A stretch of DNA of 64,000 nt, taken from positions 124,001-188,000 of the forward strand of contig NZ_ANFZ01000009.1 in NCBI RefSeq assembly GCF_000331245.1. The letters are read 5' to 3'. The translations under genes were made by a program, and so were the position numbers. Source of the DNA: Blastomonas sp. AAP53. GTDB taxonomy: Bacteria > Pseudomonadota > Alphaproteobacteria > Sphingomonadales > Sphingomonadaceae. Below, piece after piece: positions 12,248-16,756 of the stretch (positions within the stretch are counted from its first letter, which is position 1; each line of letters opens with the position of its first letter). The notes under the pieces were generated by a model, which searched no databases, was not told the DNA's origin, and saw only the letters and a program-made list of their open reading frames with translations.

Positions 12248-12487
12248 TTAAAGCTCGACCCCGGCAGCAATCGCTTCGAGCTTGCGGATGCGTTCCTTCA
12301 GGTCAGCGATCTCGATCCGCGAATGGGTCGAGGGCGATCCGCCGTCATGCAGCGGTCCGTGCGATTCAATCTCGTGGCGCTTGAACGCCAGCCATTCGCG
12401 CCAGCCGCGCAGCACGGTGGAGGAGACGAGGGCAATGCTCAGCAGGGCGCTGGTTGCCACGGTCATGTAGAGATAGGCGCTTTCCAT
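12248..12487 (-). CDS. PspB-like small membrane protein 5 (membrane helix plus coiled coil)
   Basis: A 79-residue protein with an N-terminal membrane helix (about residues 6-27) and a C-terminal amphipathic coil (IADLKERIRKLEAIA). AAAGGG precedes the ATG. It is the last and most divergent of five PspB-like genes in the phage-shock operon: it has the architecture but ends just after the KLEAIA core, without the terminal EIxxLR element. Family assignment rests on architecture and gene order. Its role is inferred to be with the PspA/B/C membrane-stress system. Confidence 0.62.
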   Translation of the reverse strand: MESAYLYMTVATSALLSIALVSSTVLRGWREWLAFKRHEIESHGPLHDGGSPSTHSRIEIADLKERIRKLEAIAAGVEL

Positions 12488-12538
12488 GATATTACCCTTT
12501 ACGGCCCCCGCCGCCCGGTTGATGGTTCATGCGCCGCG

Positions 12539-12808
12539 TCAGCGGTCGCGCAGTTTCTCGATTTCAAGGCTGAGGTCGCTGGTCTGGCGTTGATCGGTAA
12601 TCACGCGCTCCAGCACCTGCACCCGCTCCTTCAGTCCGCGTACTTCCTCGCGCAGGCGCGCAGCCTCAGCGGTGTCGGCAGGCCGGGCGAGCTGCTCATT
12701 GCCATGCTCGTCTTCCAGAATGCCGTGCTGGGCTTTGTACCTTGCCTTCAGGACATTGCCGATCATCACGATCAGGACGATGCCGATTACCATTTCAAAC
12801 GGGTTCAT
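12539..12808 (-). CDS. PspB-like small membrane protein 4
   Basis: An 89-residue protein with a membrane helix at about residues 4-20 (FEMVIGIVLIVMIGNVL), then KARYKAQHGILEDEHG, then a long coil. The C-terminus has VLERVITDQ and ends in SLEIEKLRDR, the motif pair repeated in its neighbours. GAGGGAAA precedes the ATG. The KxxHGxxLED-type segment after the helix matches the first two array proteins. It probably binds or tunes the PspA-PspBC complex at the inner membrane; that is inference from context. Confidence 0.7.
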   Translation of the reverse strand: MNPFEMVIGIVLIVMIGNVLKARYKAQHGILEDEHGNEQLARPADTAEAARLREEVRGLKERVQVLERVITDQRQTSDLSLEIEKLRDR

Positions 12809-12839
12809 GATGCGATTTCCCTCAAAATCTCAGAACGTC

Positions 12840-13100
12840 TCAGGTCAATTGCTTGGTCCGCAGGTTCTCGATCTGCTGGGCCAGGTCGTCGCGGCCCCGG
12901 CCATCGGTAACGATGCGTTCCAGCGTGCGCAGGCGCTGTTCCATCCGGTCATCGACGGGCGGTCTTGCGACCGCTTGCGCCTTGGCCAGTTCGATCTGCA
13001 GTTCCAGCGTCTTGCGCTGATGCTTCGTCCAGATCGCCAGGCCGCCGAGCATGAACGGGGCCAGCGGGATCAGAACCAGAAGCGCGTCGAAATCGAACAT
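12840..13100 (-). CDS. PspB-like small membrane protein 3
   Basis: An 86-residue protein with an N-terminal membrane helix (about residues 6-22, ALLVLIPLAPFMLGGLAIW), a basic turn (TKHQRK) and a coiled coil that ends with RTLERIVTDGRG, then QQIENLRTKQ. The GGGGG before the ATG at 13100 decides this start over a longer frame opening at 13169. It lacks the GYPLE segment of the first two array proteins but keeps the shared C-terminal motif. Function unknown beyond its place in the psp operon. Confidence 0.7.
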   Translation of the reverse strand: MFDFDALLVLIPLAPFMLGGLAIWTKHQRKTLELQIELAKAQAVARPPVDDRMEQRLRTLERIVTDGRGRDDLAQQIENLRTKQLT

Positions 13101-13131
13101 TGGTATGCCCCCAGGTGTTAGAGTGTCAGTG

Positions 13132-13455
13132 TCAGTTCGCGCGCTTGTCGCGCAGGGCTTCGATTTCATGGGTCAGGCGGTGGGAGTCATCAGTGACGAT
13201 GCGCTCGACATTGCCCAGACGGTCCTTGATCGATCCCAGTTCGGCGCGCAGCTGAGCATTTTCCTGGCTCAGCAGCTTGATCCGCTCGACCGATTCCTGG
13301 TCGGTCTTGGGATAGACCGGCTTGCCCCAGCTGTTTTCCAGCGGATAGCCGTTCTTGATCCGCAGCCAGTTGTTCACAAGAACGCCGATCGTGATGATCA
13401 GTATGCCAGCTGTCAGCGCAGGGCCCAGTGCTTCAATCAATGCAAGCTTGTCCAT
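13132..13455 (-). CDS. PspB-like small membrane protein 2
   Basis: A 107-residue protein with a membrane helix at about residues 11-29, then WLRIKNGYPLENSWGK, then an extended coiled coil ending in NVERIVTDD and THEIEALRDKR. It is clearly paralogous to the gene before it (WIRAKHGYPLED there). The ATG at 13455 shares one base with the preceding stop (TGATG); a GTG one codon earlier is also possible. Translational coupling to the previous paralogue is strong. Confidence 0.75.
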   Translation of the reverse strand: MDKLALIEALGPALTAGILIITIGVLVNNWLRIKNGYPLENSWGKPVYPKTDQESVERIKLLSQENAQLRAELGSIKDRLGNVERIVTDDSHRLTHEIEALRDKRAN

Positions 13456-13775
13456 CACGCGCGGTCCTTCTGTACTCTCAGGCGTTCGATTTCGTCCGCC
13501 AGGCGGCTGCTCGAACTGTTGGCGTCGGTAGCAATGCGTTCCAGCACCGCAATCCGTTCTTCCAGCCGTCCGATCTTGCCGGTTAACTGCTCGTTTTCTG
13601 ATGTGAGCAGCGATATTTTTCGATCAGCGTCAGGATCTGTTCGTTCAATGACTTTACCGGTCCACTGATCTTCGAGGGGATAGCCATGCTTGGCGCGGAT
13701 CCAGGTGGTAAACACCCATGCGCTCATCGAAAGCATGACAATCGCGATAACAAAACCTGGTCCACCCCAGCTCAT
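13455..13775 (-). CDS. PspB-like small membrane protein 1
   Basis: A 106-residue protein with an N-terminal helix (about residues 8-25, VIAIVMLSMSAWVFTTW), then IRAKHGYPLEDQWTGK, then a coiled coil with VLERIATDA and a terminal ADEIERLRVQ. It resembles a lengthened PspB: one membrane helix followed by a cytoplasmic coil. CAGGAGA precedes the ATG. It follows pspC by 33 bases on the same strand. Likely an accessory of the Psp envelope-stress system. Confidence 0.75.
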   Translation of the reverse strand: MSWGGPGFVIAIVMLSMSAWVFTTWIRAKHGYPLEDQWTGKVIERTDPDADRKISLLTSENEQLTGKIGRLEERIAVLERIATDANSSSSRLADEIERLRVQKDRA

Positions 13776-13808
13776 GACAATCTCCTGAAACCTTGTTTCT
13801 GTTCTCGT

Positions 13809-14216
13809 TCAGCGCAGGCTTTCGATCTCGTCGGCCAGCCGCGTGTTCTTGGCGGTGTAGAACAGTTCGACATCAGCCAGGCGACGGTCGATCTCGCGGA
13901 ACCGGGCCTTCACATCGCGAGCGGTGCGGGTCGGCGACTGGCGTACACCCTGCCAGAACTTCTGGTCCTGATCGTCGGTGTAAAGGTGCGCCGGCTTCTT
14001 CTCAGCCAGAAAGCCCATTCCGAGATAGCCAATCAAGGCCCAACCGGTCATCAGCGTGAGCAGGATGGCGGCAACGCGGATCCACACGACATCGATCCCG
14101 GTGTAATCGGCGATGCCAGCGCACACGCCCATGAACTTGCCGTTCTGCTTGTTGCGATAGAACTTGGTCTTGCGCGGTGCGGGGGCGTCGTTGCGATATT
14201 TGTCCAGGCGGCTCAT
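13809..14216 (-). CDS. pspC: PspC-domain membrane protein
   Basis: A 135-residue phage shock protein C. The PspC domain begins with KFYRNKQNGKFMGVCAGIADYTGID, followed by a hydrophobic hairpin (about residues 45-70). In model systems PspC and PspB at the inner membrane sense envelope damage and release PspA from PspF. Here the C-terminal extension ends in VELFYTAKNTRLADEIESLR, which carries the same motif as the PspB-like proteins of this operon. Its ATG overlaps the pspB stop by four bases. Confidence 0.9.
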   Translation of the reverse strand: MSRLDKYRNDAPAPRKTKFYRNKQNGKFMGVCAGIADYTGIDVVWIRVAAILLTLMTGWALIGYLGMGFLAEKKPAHLYTDDQDQKFWQGVRQSPTRTARDVKARFREIDRRLADVELFYTAKNTRLADEIESLR

Positions 14217-14515
14217 TTCCTTACCCTTTCCTTCAGCAGGCGCTCAACCTGTTCCAGGGCGTAATCGTCCTGGTCATCCGAACTGGTCAGTCGCGCCGGG
14301 CGCCAGTCGGGGTTGTCGGCGGAGATGATCCGCTCGACCGTATCCATGCGATCGTCGAGGCGACGGGCCATCGCGTGCAGCTCTTCCAGCAGGTTTTCAT
14401 CCGAGCTGGTGAGCGTCGCTGCGGTCTTCCACTTGGTGATGTAGTGAAACACCAGCCAGGGCAGTCCGATGAAGAGCATGCCGACGATGAAGATGGGGAC
14501 GAGGATCTCTTCCAT
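14213..14515 (-). CDS. pspB: Phage shock protein B
   Basis: A 100-residue inner-membrane protein, longer than typical PspB of about 75. It has an N-terminal helix (ILVPIFIVGMLFIGLPWLVFHY) and the coil ARRLDDRMDTVERIIS, which is characteristic of PspB. The tail beyond the usual end is acidic, then basic. AAGGAGG in the end of pspA serves as its ribosome site, four bases after the pspA stop. It couples to pspC through ATGA. Confidence 0.88.
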   Translation of the reverse strand: MEEILVPIFIVGMLFIGLPWLVFHYITKWKTAATLTSSDENLLEELHAMARRLDDRMDTVERIISADNPDWRPARLTSSDDQDDYALEQVERLLKERVRK

Positions 14516-14519
14516 CGGA

Positions 14520-15215
14520 TCAGCCCTCCTTCTTCATGGCGCGTTTCATCGCCTCGAGTTCTTCGTCGACCTTGTCCGACTGCGCGAGAGCGGCAAATTC
14601 GTCGTCAAGGTTGCGCTGGCCCAGCGCCTTGCGCTCGCCGCGCTCGTCCTCGGCCATGCCCAAAGCATCGGCGCGGCCTTCGGCCATGTCGACGCGGCGT
14701 TCGAGCAGGTCAAAGCGGCTGAAGGCTTCGCGGACCTTGTCGCCATTGTACATCGTGCGCAGCTTGACGCGGTTCTCGGCGCTTTCGAGGCGGCTCATGA
14801 TGTTGTTCTGGCGCATGCGGGCCTCGCGCAGCTTGGCCTGCAGCTTGGCAATGTCCTGCTCCGACGCGCGCAGCGCATCATCGAGCACGTTGATTTCGAC
14901 ATTGAGCTGATCGGCCATATCGGCAGCCTTCTTCTTTTCCAGCAGCGCGGCGCGGGCCAGGTCTTCGCGGTCCTTGGACAAGGCGAGTTCTGCCTTGTCG
15001 GTCCAGTCAGCCTGCAGCTGCTCCAGCTTGTTCACGTGCCGCTTCATTTCCTTCTGGTCGGCGATGGTGCGCGCGGCAGAGGCGCGGACTTCGACCAGGG
15101 TTTCTTCCATCTCGAGGATGATCATCCGGATCATCTTCGACGGGTCTTCGGCCTTGTCGAGCAGCTCGGTAACATTGGCGGCAATGATGTCGCGGGTTCG
15201 AGAGAAAATTCCCAT
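14520..15215 (-). CDS. pspA: Phage shock protein A (PspA/IM30)
   Basis: A 231-residue coiled-coil protein of the PspA/IM30 (ESCRT-III-like) family that binds stressed inner membrane and, when bound to PspF, keeps the regulon off. The N-terminal amphipathic helix MGIFSRTRDIIAANVTELLD and the EDPSKMIRMIILEMEETL segment are diagnostic; nearly all the rest is coil. The ATG at 15215 is chosen because this is the family's conserved first residue. The frame stays open upstream through an unrelated hairpin region. Confidence 0.95.
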   Translation of the reverse strand: MGIFSRTRDIIAANVTELLDKAEDPSKMIRMIILEMEETLVEVRASAARTIADQKEMKRHVNKLEQLQADWTDKAELALSKDREDLARAALLEKKKAADMADQLNVEINVLDDALRASEQDIAKLQAKLREARMRQNNIMSRLESAENRVKLRTMYNGDKVREAFSRFDLLERRVDMAEGRADALGMAEDERGERKALGQRNLDDEFAALAQSDKVDEELEAMKRAMKKEG

Positions 15216-15295
15216 GGCGAAAACTCCGTTCGTTAAGGTCGGGTGGACCGGATCCTGATCCACCTTACCCCCTTTTGCATGGCAGTTGAAAGAGA

Positions 15296-15335
15296 TTGGC
15301 CGGGACGGGGCAAGGGGGGTAAGCGTCCCGGCCAA
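15296..15335 (-). terminator. Strong hairpin between the small psp gene and pspA
   Basis: A perfect 12-bp inverted repeat (TTGGCCGGGACG and its complement) encloses a 16-base loop in the 125-base gap before pspA. On the minus strand it is followed by TCTCTTT rather than a clean T run. It could be a partial terminator or an RNA-processing or stabilising element that sets pspA output relative to the promoter-proximal gene. Confidence 0.5.
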
Positions 15336-15340
15336 ATCCG

Positions 15341-15541
15341 TCAGGCGAGGTACCGGACGGAAACGATTTTGCCGGCATCCCTGTCGTGCTGAACAGGCGA
15401 GGCCGCGGCCTCGATGCTGGCGAAGGCGGTGAGGAACAGCGTGGTGACCAGCATCAGTGCAGCAACCGTGGTGATCAGCGTCGACTTGAAGACGCCGTCT
15501 TCCTGTGCCGTCTGATCGTTGGTTTGGTTCGCGTAACGCAC
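15341..15541 (-). CDS. Small single-helix membrane protein, first gene of the psp operon
   Basis: A 66-residue protein starting at a GTG with GGGAGAA five to six bases upstream. A polar N-terminus (about 22 residues) leads to one hydrophobic helix (STLITTVAALMLVTTLFLTAFASI) and a short polar tail ending VSVRYLA. It is the first gene after the sigma-54-type promoter and precedes pspA. It resembles neither PspB, PspD nor PspG clearly. A Psp membrane accessory is the natural inference. Confidence 0.65.
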   Translation of the reverse strand: MRYANQTNDQTAQEDGVFKSTLITTVAALMLVTTLFLTAFASIEAAASPVQHDRDAGKIVSVRYLA

Positions 15542-15587: not shown

Positions 15588-15603
15588 TGCAGGGTGCGTG
15601 CCA
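15588..15603 (-). promoter_or_regulatory. Sigma-54-type (-24/-12) promoter of the psp operon
   Basis: On the minus strand TGGCAC-GCACC-CTGCA closely matches the RpoN consensus TGGCAC-N5-TTGCA, with one mismatch in the -12 element. It lies in the 162-base gap between pspF and the small gene, about 47 bases before that gene's GTG. PspF, the adjacent enhancer-binding protein, is the expected activator. Confidence 0.8.
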
Positions 15604-15703: not shown

Positions 15704-16756
15704 ATGCAGAGGGCCAGTCAGTTCATCGGGGAGTCAGGGGCGTTTCTGGATGCGGTCGAACGCGCCAGCCGTGCTGCCATGCTCAACCGACCGGTGCTGG
15801 TGATCGGCGAGCGCGGCACGGGCAAGGAACTGATCGCCGAGCGGCTCCATCGCCTGTCCTCGCGCTGGGATGGTCCGCTGATCACATTGAACTGCGCCGC
15901 GCTCCCCGAAACGCTGATCGAAGCCGAGCTGTTCGGCCACGAGGCAGGCGCCTTCACCGGCGCAACCCGCGCGCGCCAGGGCCGGTTCGAGGAGGCCGAT
16001 GGCGGCACGTTGTTCCTCGACGAACTCGCAACCTTGAGCTCCGCTGCGCAGGAACGGCTGCTGCGCGCGGTCGAATATGGCGAGATCACCCGCATCGGCT
16101 CTTCGCGCGCGATCAAGGTCGATGTGCGGATCGTCGCTGCCACCAACGAACATCTGCCCGAACTGGTCGAGCAGGGCCGCTTCCGCGCCGACTTGCTCGA
16201 TCGCCTGTCGTTCGAGGTGGTCACCCTGCCGCCGCTGCGCGTGCGCGAGGGCGACGTGATGGTGCTCGCCGATTTCTTCGGGCGGCGCATGGCGGCGGAG
16301 CTCGACTGGCCCGATTGGCCGGGCTTCGGCGCGATGGCGACCGAGGCGATGAAGCGCCACAGCTGGCCGGGCAATGTCCGCGAACTGCGCAACGTCGTTG
16401 AACGCGCGGTCTATCGCTGGGACGATCCCGATCGTGCGGTGGACCATATCGTGTTCGATCCGTTCGAATCGCCCTGGAAGCCGCAGCCTTCCAAGCGCCC
16501 TGCTTCTGCGCAATCGCCCTGCGATGACGTGATCGATGCGGCGCTGGCGGACTCCGGGGTGCGCGCGACGCTCGACCAGACGATGAACTTCGATAACGTC
16601 GATGATCTGCGCGGCGCGGTCGACGCACACGAAAAGCGCATCCTGCAGGCAGCATTGGCACGTCACCGCTACAACCAGCGCCAGACCGCCAAGGCGCTAG
16701 GCCTGAGCTATGACCAATTGCGGCACTGTTTGAAGAAGCACGATTTGTTGAACTAG
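15704..16756 (+). CDS. pspF: PspF, sigma-54 enhancer-binding activator of the psp operon
   Basis: A 350-residue AAA+ activator of RpoN-polymerase. The Walker A GERGTGKE is at 35-42, the sigma-54-contacting GAFTGA loop at 82-87, and the typical GGTLFLDEL and WPGNVRELRNVVERA follow. The C-terminal Fis-type helix-turn-helix is YNQRQTAKALGLSYDQLRHCLKK. As in PspF there is no N-terminal sensory domain, consistent with control by PspA binding. The ATG at 15704 is chosen. It is transcribed divergently from the psp operon. Confidence 0.94.
   Translation: MQRASQFIGESGAFLDAVERASRAAMLNRPVLVIGERGTGKELIAERLHRLSSRWDGPLITLNCAALPETLIEAELFGHEAGAFTGATRARQGRFEEADGGTLFLDELATLSSAAQERLLRAVEYGEITRIGSSRAIKVDVRIVAATNEHLPELVEQGRFRADLLDRLSFEVVTLPPLRVREGDVMVLADFFGRRMAAELDWPDWPGFGAMATEAMKRHSWPGNVRELRNVVERAVYRWDDPDRAVDHIVFDPFESPWKPQPSKRPASAQSPCDDVIDAALADSGVRATLDQTMNFDNVDDLRGAVDAHEKRILQAALARHRYNQRQTAKALGLSYDQLRHCLKKHDLLN

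Follow-up and report, generated by a model that had tools for sequence, protein, structure and literature searches.

To our knowledge, there is no settled account of how two small proteins let the phage-shock-protein (Psp) response detect insults of such different kinds. The main neighbours of PspA in Proteobacteria are PspB, PspC and PspD (Popp et al. 2022, PMC9239133), and psp operons with duplicated PspB as well as fusions of PspC with PspB have been described (Ravi et al. 2024, PMC11237479). In Yersinia, stress switches on PspBC, the C-terminal domain of PspC binds PspA and PspF is freed (PMC5596341). In Escherichia coli, PspC69-119 together with PspB binds PspA and induces psp, mutants of the PspC leucine zipper (motif 77-98) fail to bind PspA and PspB touches PspC via its membrane segment; the same study places the C-terminus of PspC in the periplasm, which is the older topology, and allows two topologies (PMC3068692). 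Here, we describe a psp operon in a 64,000-nucleotide stretch of DNA from Blastomonas sp. AAP53 (the window) which continues downstream of pspC with an array of five small genes, orf1-orf5, encoding one N-terminal membrane helix apiece. The order on the minus strand is pspA-pspB-pspC-orf1-orf2-orf3-orf4-orf5 and then sufE, with pspF divergent on the plus strand (Table 1). All five genes were found on this strand in the order in which a preliminary description of this DNA had listed them.

The first four proteins share a C-terminal tail, ERI(V/A)TD...(E/Q)IxxLR, where the motifs are VLERIATD/EIERLR in orf1, VERIVTD/EIEALR in orf2, LERIVTD/QIENLR in orf3 and LERVITD/EIEKLR in orf4. The signature given in the preliminary description is therefore present in all four, except that orf3 has QI and not EI. 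Its other motifs were recovered as well: GYPLE is present in orf1 and orf2, orf4 has the variant HGILED, and the PspC of the window carries a version of the signature in its tail, ending RLADEIESLR. In Pfam and NCBIfam, none of the five small proteins reaches the cut-off of a PspB or PspC model, and the models there give the genes no name. The scores of orf1-orf4 with the PspB models are at most 15.5 bits for Pfam PF06667 (cut-off 25.6) and 13.9 bits for TIGR02976 (cut-off 51.7). Their weak matches fall mostly on the C-terminal parts of the PspB and PspC models, and matches of window genes to TIGR02978 start at profile position 46 or later, so that the PspC domain, the N-terminal half, was not found in them.

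Profile-profile comparisons (HHalign; values are probabilities) were more informative. Matches among the orf1-orf4 groups are at 98.6-99.9%, those to PspB profiles at 43-94% and those to PspC profiles at 69-96%, and the proposed relationship of orf1-orf4 to one another and to PspB thus survives the check by hidden Markov model profiles. For the orf1, orf3 and orf4 groups the match to outgroup PspB is about 94%, with homology over the transmembrane (TM) helix and the coil; the orf2 group reaches 85% with family PspB but 55%, over the coil only, with outgroup PspB. At the other end, residues 70-106 of the orf2 group align with residues 111-147 of family PspC at 96%, and residues 85-119 of E. coli PspC are aligned by the modules at 69% when pooled and at 89% for the orf2 group. 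As controls, FtsL, FtsB, AtpF and LapA, which are unrelated E. coli membrane or coil proteins taken as single sequences, gave at most 13% with the orf1-orf4 groups, and reversed PspB and PspC profiles gave at most about 14% with one exception, the orf2 group against reversed family PspC (53%, forward 96%). PspB and PspC profiles match each other at just 2-25%, and the modules therefore bridge the two, with a PspB-like TM helix and coil up to ERI and a PspC ending beyond it. Judged from these profiles, orf1-orf4 are one paralogous family which is related more weakly to PspB and to the tail of PspC. The term PspB-like used in the preliminary description is apt up to ERI; beyond this point the proteins are PspC-like and they stay below the PspB cut-offs.

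These comparisons also bear on whether the modules are generic membrane-plus-coil proteins, whose likeness to PspB and PspC would be convergent coiled-coil composition. Such an origin would fit the single-sequence matches of the window genes to PspB and PspC, which are below cut-off, the spurious bZIP and ZapB matches given by the coils and the reversed control at 53%. However, the other profile comparisons are far above the controls, and we consider convergence very improbable.

The tail aligns with residues 85-119 of E. coli PspC and occurs in the PspC of other families; it is therefore PspC's own and was not grafted onto PspC in this lineage, as had been suggested. Since the segment is the standard PspC C-terminus, the small proteins carry the tail of PspC and not the reverse. 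PspC tails and module tails from 20 genomes look alike side by side. Module tails have 27% of residues in common with the tail of their own PspC (n=296; 17% when shuffled) and 29% in common with their own PspB (n=140; 16% when shuffled), and this measure thus favours neither of the two origins. Paralogs from the same locus agree in 20% of the residues of their heads and 43% of those of their tails, compared with 10% and 18% after shuffling (416 pairs), and on these figures the modules have a variable juxtamembrane head and a constant tail. The AlphaFold2 model of orf2 has a TM helix at residues 3-35 and a long helix at 53-106, joined by a loop that spans the GYPLE segment, with a mean predicted local distance difference test score (pLDDT) of 86.8 and a predicted template-modelling score (pTM) of 0.40; the PspC model was mediocre (pLDDT 75.6) and was not used. 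Among solved structures we found coil-type matches alone, the best with an E-value of 0.026. Lysine and arginine are more frequent after the helix than before it in 367 of 373 small proteins, orf5 included, an excess which points to a cytoplasmic C-terminus, and the modules are predicted to be N-out/C-in.

The terminal gene, orf5, was observed to be different. It matches the pool of all modules at 94-95% and the groups of orf3 and orf4 at 86-92%; for the orf1 and orf2 groups the values are just 2-12%, and for PspB or PspC profiles no more than 7% (HHalign). It has no match to PspB or PspC models in Pfam or NCBIfam and no Pfam match at E 0.01. The preliminary description had called the fifth protein PspB-like, which is not supported, and by its profile orf5 is a remote, tail-less relative of the modules. 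It is the last gene of the array in 80 of 90 family loci.

The array was found to be conserved in the family, although the number of genes differs between loci. PspC was over cut-off in 91 of the 99 family genomes sampled, and the other 90 loci were fetched and the genes downstream of pspC read. As many as 89 of these 90 loci carry between one and eight small genes for a TM helix and a coil, with a mean of 4.2, and the gene order is thus conserved outside this genome, as had been anticipated. The number of genes is zero in one locus, one in four, two in seven, three in ten, four in 30, five in 23, six in nine, seven in five and eight in one; these counts include orf5 and one added module apiece in L107, L119 and L146, and gene starts were chosen by rule. 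Three loci (L090, L113 and L121) have an extra short PspC-domain protein without a tail between pspB and pspC. In other families of the class a PspC match was observed in 23 genomes, from which 19 loci were fetched and four weak matches left, and 17 of the 19 have no such genes downstream of pspC. Two loci of family f41 (L165 and L166) have after pspC a single-helix TM protein with a canonical PspC tail, followed by a second PspB.

A tree was built from 299 modules (FastTree, midpoint root), excluding orf5 and two of the 301 tail-type proteins which are shorter than 70 amino acids. None of its 90 terminal pairs joins two genes of one locus, and recent tandem duplication is therefore rejected. 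Orthologous groups hold 284 modules, namely orf1 (42 rows), orf2 (64), orf3 (47, 22 and 16) and orf4 (49 and 44), where duplicates reach 8% at most. Five of the seven large groups have support of 85-96, and the other two of 49 and 65. The usual order is [orf3 type]-orf1-orf2-[orf3 type]-orf4-orf5, where every member is optional and exceptions exist. We read the array as an old expansion with much loss and not as a fresh duplication, so that the suggested duplication of a PspB-like module is supported in that orf1-orf4 appear paralogous but not as a recent event. In the comparison with seven loci of the Blastomonas clade, the ratio of nonsynonymous to synonymous substitution (dN/dS) is 0-0.30 for orf1-orf5 and 0.02-0.23 for pspA, pspB and pspC; selection on orf1-orf5 is purifying. 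Among the named matches to orf2, the best six belong to Blastomonas or to strains filed under Sphingomonas (77-83% identity), and the 80 named loci that were kept nearly all carry sphingomonad or erythrobacter labels, with four labelled only as Alphaproteobacteria or Pseudomonadota.

The presence of the modules was observed to follow that of the psp genes. A pspC match is lacking in six of the 99 family genomes, and pspA and the modules are absent from all six. One genome, G036, has a reduced operon (L312, 2306-3907) with pspA, an 88-residue PspC which ends before the tail and two modules. No protein of this genome is over the PspB cut-off and the best matches to the PspB model are the two modules themselves; G036 has lost pspB and the tail of PspC yet keeps two modules. 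Another genome (G092) has pspA and a PspC match at a contig end, without a module. In the window's own genome, a second PspC-model match lies at G000:C2:253864-254049, with one TGA counted inside.

Relatives of the modules also occur away from psp genes. We used a phylum sample of 348 genomes and an order sample of 147, where module and PspC scans, run with the same settings, were taken to cover the same genomes. In the phylum sample, one or two stand-alone modules were found in 28 non-family genomes from seven families, and PspC is present in all 28, compared with 28 of 301 non-family genomes without a module (Fisher P 2.5e-25, which ignores relatedness). PspA was found in all 20 of these genomes that were checked. 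When positions were compared by eye, the stand-alone modules were either over 75 kb away from pspC or on a different contig. In the order sample, PspC accompanies the module in all 43 non-family genomes that carry one; 13 others have PspC but no module, and the five without PspC are also without modules (Fisher P 0.0014, again ignoring relatedness); the distance to pspC was checked for three of the non-family modules. For all eight stand-alone proteins scanned, the top three NCBIfam matches include both the PspB and the PspC model, below cut-off, and the TIGR02978 matches start at profile position 43 or later, hence without the N-terminal half of PspC. This result, together with the gain and loss of modules along with psp, also speaks against convergent coil composition. 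Some neighbours of the stand-alone modules are common within some families and none is common to all (20 loci; ten neighbours scanned). Such relatives from seven other families are collected in loci L208-L227, and tandem pairs were observed in L211, L212 and L214. The idea that they are unlinked PspF targets was not supported, as the strict sigma-54 site occurs at one of 23 stand-alone modules and at none of 126 other genes (P 0.15); a looser pattern was found at four of 23 and five of 126 respectively (P 0.03).

In the 700 bases preceding pspA, a strict sigma-54 (-24/-12) pattern was found at 69 of 90 loci (the window and 89 family loci). Of shuffled upstream sequences, 0.06% had the pattern, and it was absent from all of these arrays. 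The array genes are co-directional with small gaps or overlaps and the sigma-54 site, the single predicted promoter, lies upstream of pspA; the array is probably co-transcribed with pspABC and driven by PspF and sigma-54. Between this site and pspA there is a leader open reading frame (ORF), which from its position is probably the first gene of the operon. It was not described in the preliminary description although the range covered there ends at 15541. The leader ORF is 65-91% identical in seven Blastomonas-clade loci (dN/dS 0.19-0.56) and has no Pfam match; by a loose rule, similar small ORFs were found in 24 of 109 loci, the window included.

Table 1. Features of the psp locus, with positions in the window and the supporting model score or observation
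Feature	Position	Strand	Support
pspF, sigma-54 enhancer-binding activator	15704..16756	+	TIGR02974 491 bits, cut-off 443.55
sigma-54 (-24/-12) promoter element TGGCACGCACCCTGCA	15588..15603	-	sequence
leader ORF, 66 aa, GTG start, one hydrophobic helix	15341..15541	-	between sigma-54 site and pspA
pspA	14520..15215	-	TIGR02977 263.5 bits, cut-off 242.95
pspB	14213..14515	-	TIGR02976 91.9 bits, cut-off 51.7
pspC, tail ...VELFYTAKNTRLADEIESLR (ends RLADEIESLR)	13809..14216	-	TIGR02978 124.3 bits, cut-off 104
module orf1: TM helix, WIRAKHGYPLED, coil, PspC-type tail	13455..13775	-	dN/dS 0.03-0.13
module orf2: TM helix, WLRIKNGYPLEN, coil, PspC-type tail	13132..13455	-	dN/dS 0.18-0.30
module orf3: TM helix, coil, PspC-type tail, without GYPL	12840..13100	-	dN/dS 0.03-0.22
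module orf4: TM helix, HGILED variant, coil, PspC-type tail	12539..12808	-	dN/dS 0.04-0.17
orf5, terminal gene: TM helix, short coil ending LEAIAAGVEL (LKERIRKLEAIAAGVEL), without tail	12248..12487	-	dN/dS 0-0.23

With moderate confidence, we propose that the array encodes lineage-specific small inner-membrane adaptors of the Psp response which place extra inputs onto PspA. The heads of the modules differ, and each may have its own membrane trigger or protein partner. Under membrane stress the heads would expose their tails or assemble them jointly with PspBC, possibly as hetero-assemblies, and the tails, present in all modules but orf5, would draw PspA to the membrane and thereby release PspF. 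As recruitment of PspA by the tails would free PspF, a single stress output would gain several inputs and positive feedback. In favour of this proposal are the homology of the modules to PspB and to the PspC tail, the variable heads on a constant tail, the orientation predicted from charge, the sigma-54 site ahead of pspA, the co-occurrence with PspA and PspC, the modules kept in G036 and, in enterobacteria, the binding of PspA by the C-terminal part of PspC in which this tail lies.

The variable heads and constant tail would suit different targets equally well, and the modules could instead be effectors and not sensors, that is, diversified PspB relatives which bind and neutralise misplaced membrane proteins or leaks and use the tail just as a tether to PspC or PspA, with no part in regulatory input. 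Yersinia PspBC have a second role which is independent of regulation, and were found complexed with mislocalised secretins (PMC5596341). However, the conserved tail falls in the part of PspC that is tied to PspA signalling in E. coli, and we regard an effector role as unlikely, if still the strongest competitor. A less probable alternative is that the modules act as dampers and use their tails to compete with PspC for PspA or PspB, thus setting the threshold or shut-off of the response. Such competition is invited by the tail that PspC has in common with up to seven neighbouring proteins, which are probably co-transcribed, but G036, a single genome, keeps its modules without PspB and the PspC tail to compete with.

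Several observations weigh against the adaptor proposal. Of the E. coli zipper (77-98), just residues 85-98 are covered by the module tail, and in Yersinia the zipper was proposed to receive the signal and not to bind PspA (Gueguen 2009, cited in PMC3068692). The module coil could pair with anything, the single-chain orf2 model gives no partner (pTM 0.40) and orf5 is without the tail. As copy number spans zero to eight, no single module is indispensable across the family. In addition, the strict sigma-54 match is missing in 21 of the 90 loci, and no clear sigma-54 site was found at the stand-alone relatives (strict pattern in one of 23). The phylum module scan scored at most 14 first-look candidates per genome, which makes absences less certain, and the co-occurrence statistics take no account of relatedness among genomes.

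A wider form of the adaptor proposal is more tentative, and we consider it somewhat likelier to fail than to hold. The modules would belong to a single-helix 'PspC-tail' superfamily across Pseudomonadota which occurs only alongside PspC and ranges from single genes to arrays (up to seven tail-bearing genes and orf5). It would form a modular receptor layer of the Psp response with swappable heads on one PspA-recruiting tail and could replace PspB and PspC's own tail. 

From the G036 operon it would seem that the tail is able to act when carried by a protein of its own, so that the contact between PspC and PspA would be testable in a minimal setting. Furthermore, a natural array which varies the membrane heads and retains one tail would make it possible to swap heads and separate inputs.

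PspB duplicates as such have already been published (Ravi et al. 2024, PMC11237479). In the available excerpts of that paper the duplicates are given without a count, a gene list, a PspC-type tail on separate proteins, orf5 or stand-alone relatives, and AOL22920.1 is given without an organism. Within the excerpts of the open-licence papers surveyed, we found no account of the array or its tail, nor of orf5 or the stand-alone relatives, and PspB duplicates were found just in Ravi et al. 2024; no paper combining PspB, PspC and Sphingomonas was found in the open-licence literature. The locus has in common with pspFABC of E. coli and Yersinia the divergent pspF, the sigma-54 site, the order pspA-pspB-pspC and proteins over the NCBIfam cut-offs. 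It differs from E. coli MG1655, where pspD is the next gene, whereas the window has five other genes instead. The modules share with PspB (PF06667, TIGR02976) one N-terminal TM helix and a coil up to ERI, but PspB of both the window and E. coli closes the coil with NPxWR while the modules run on into a PspC-type tail. The C-terminal ending of E. coli PspC, ERYVTSDTFTLRSRFRQL, aligns to the module tails, and the modules differ from PspC in carrying this tail on a single-helix protein without the PspC domain.

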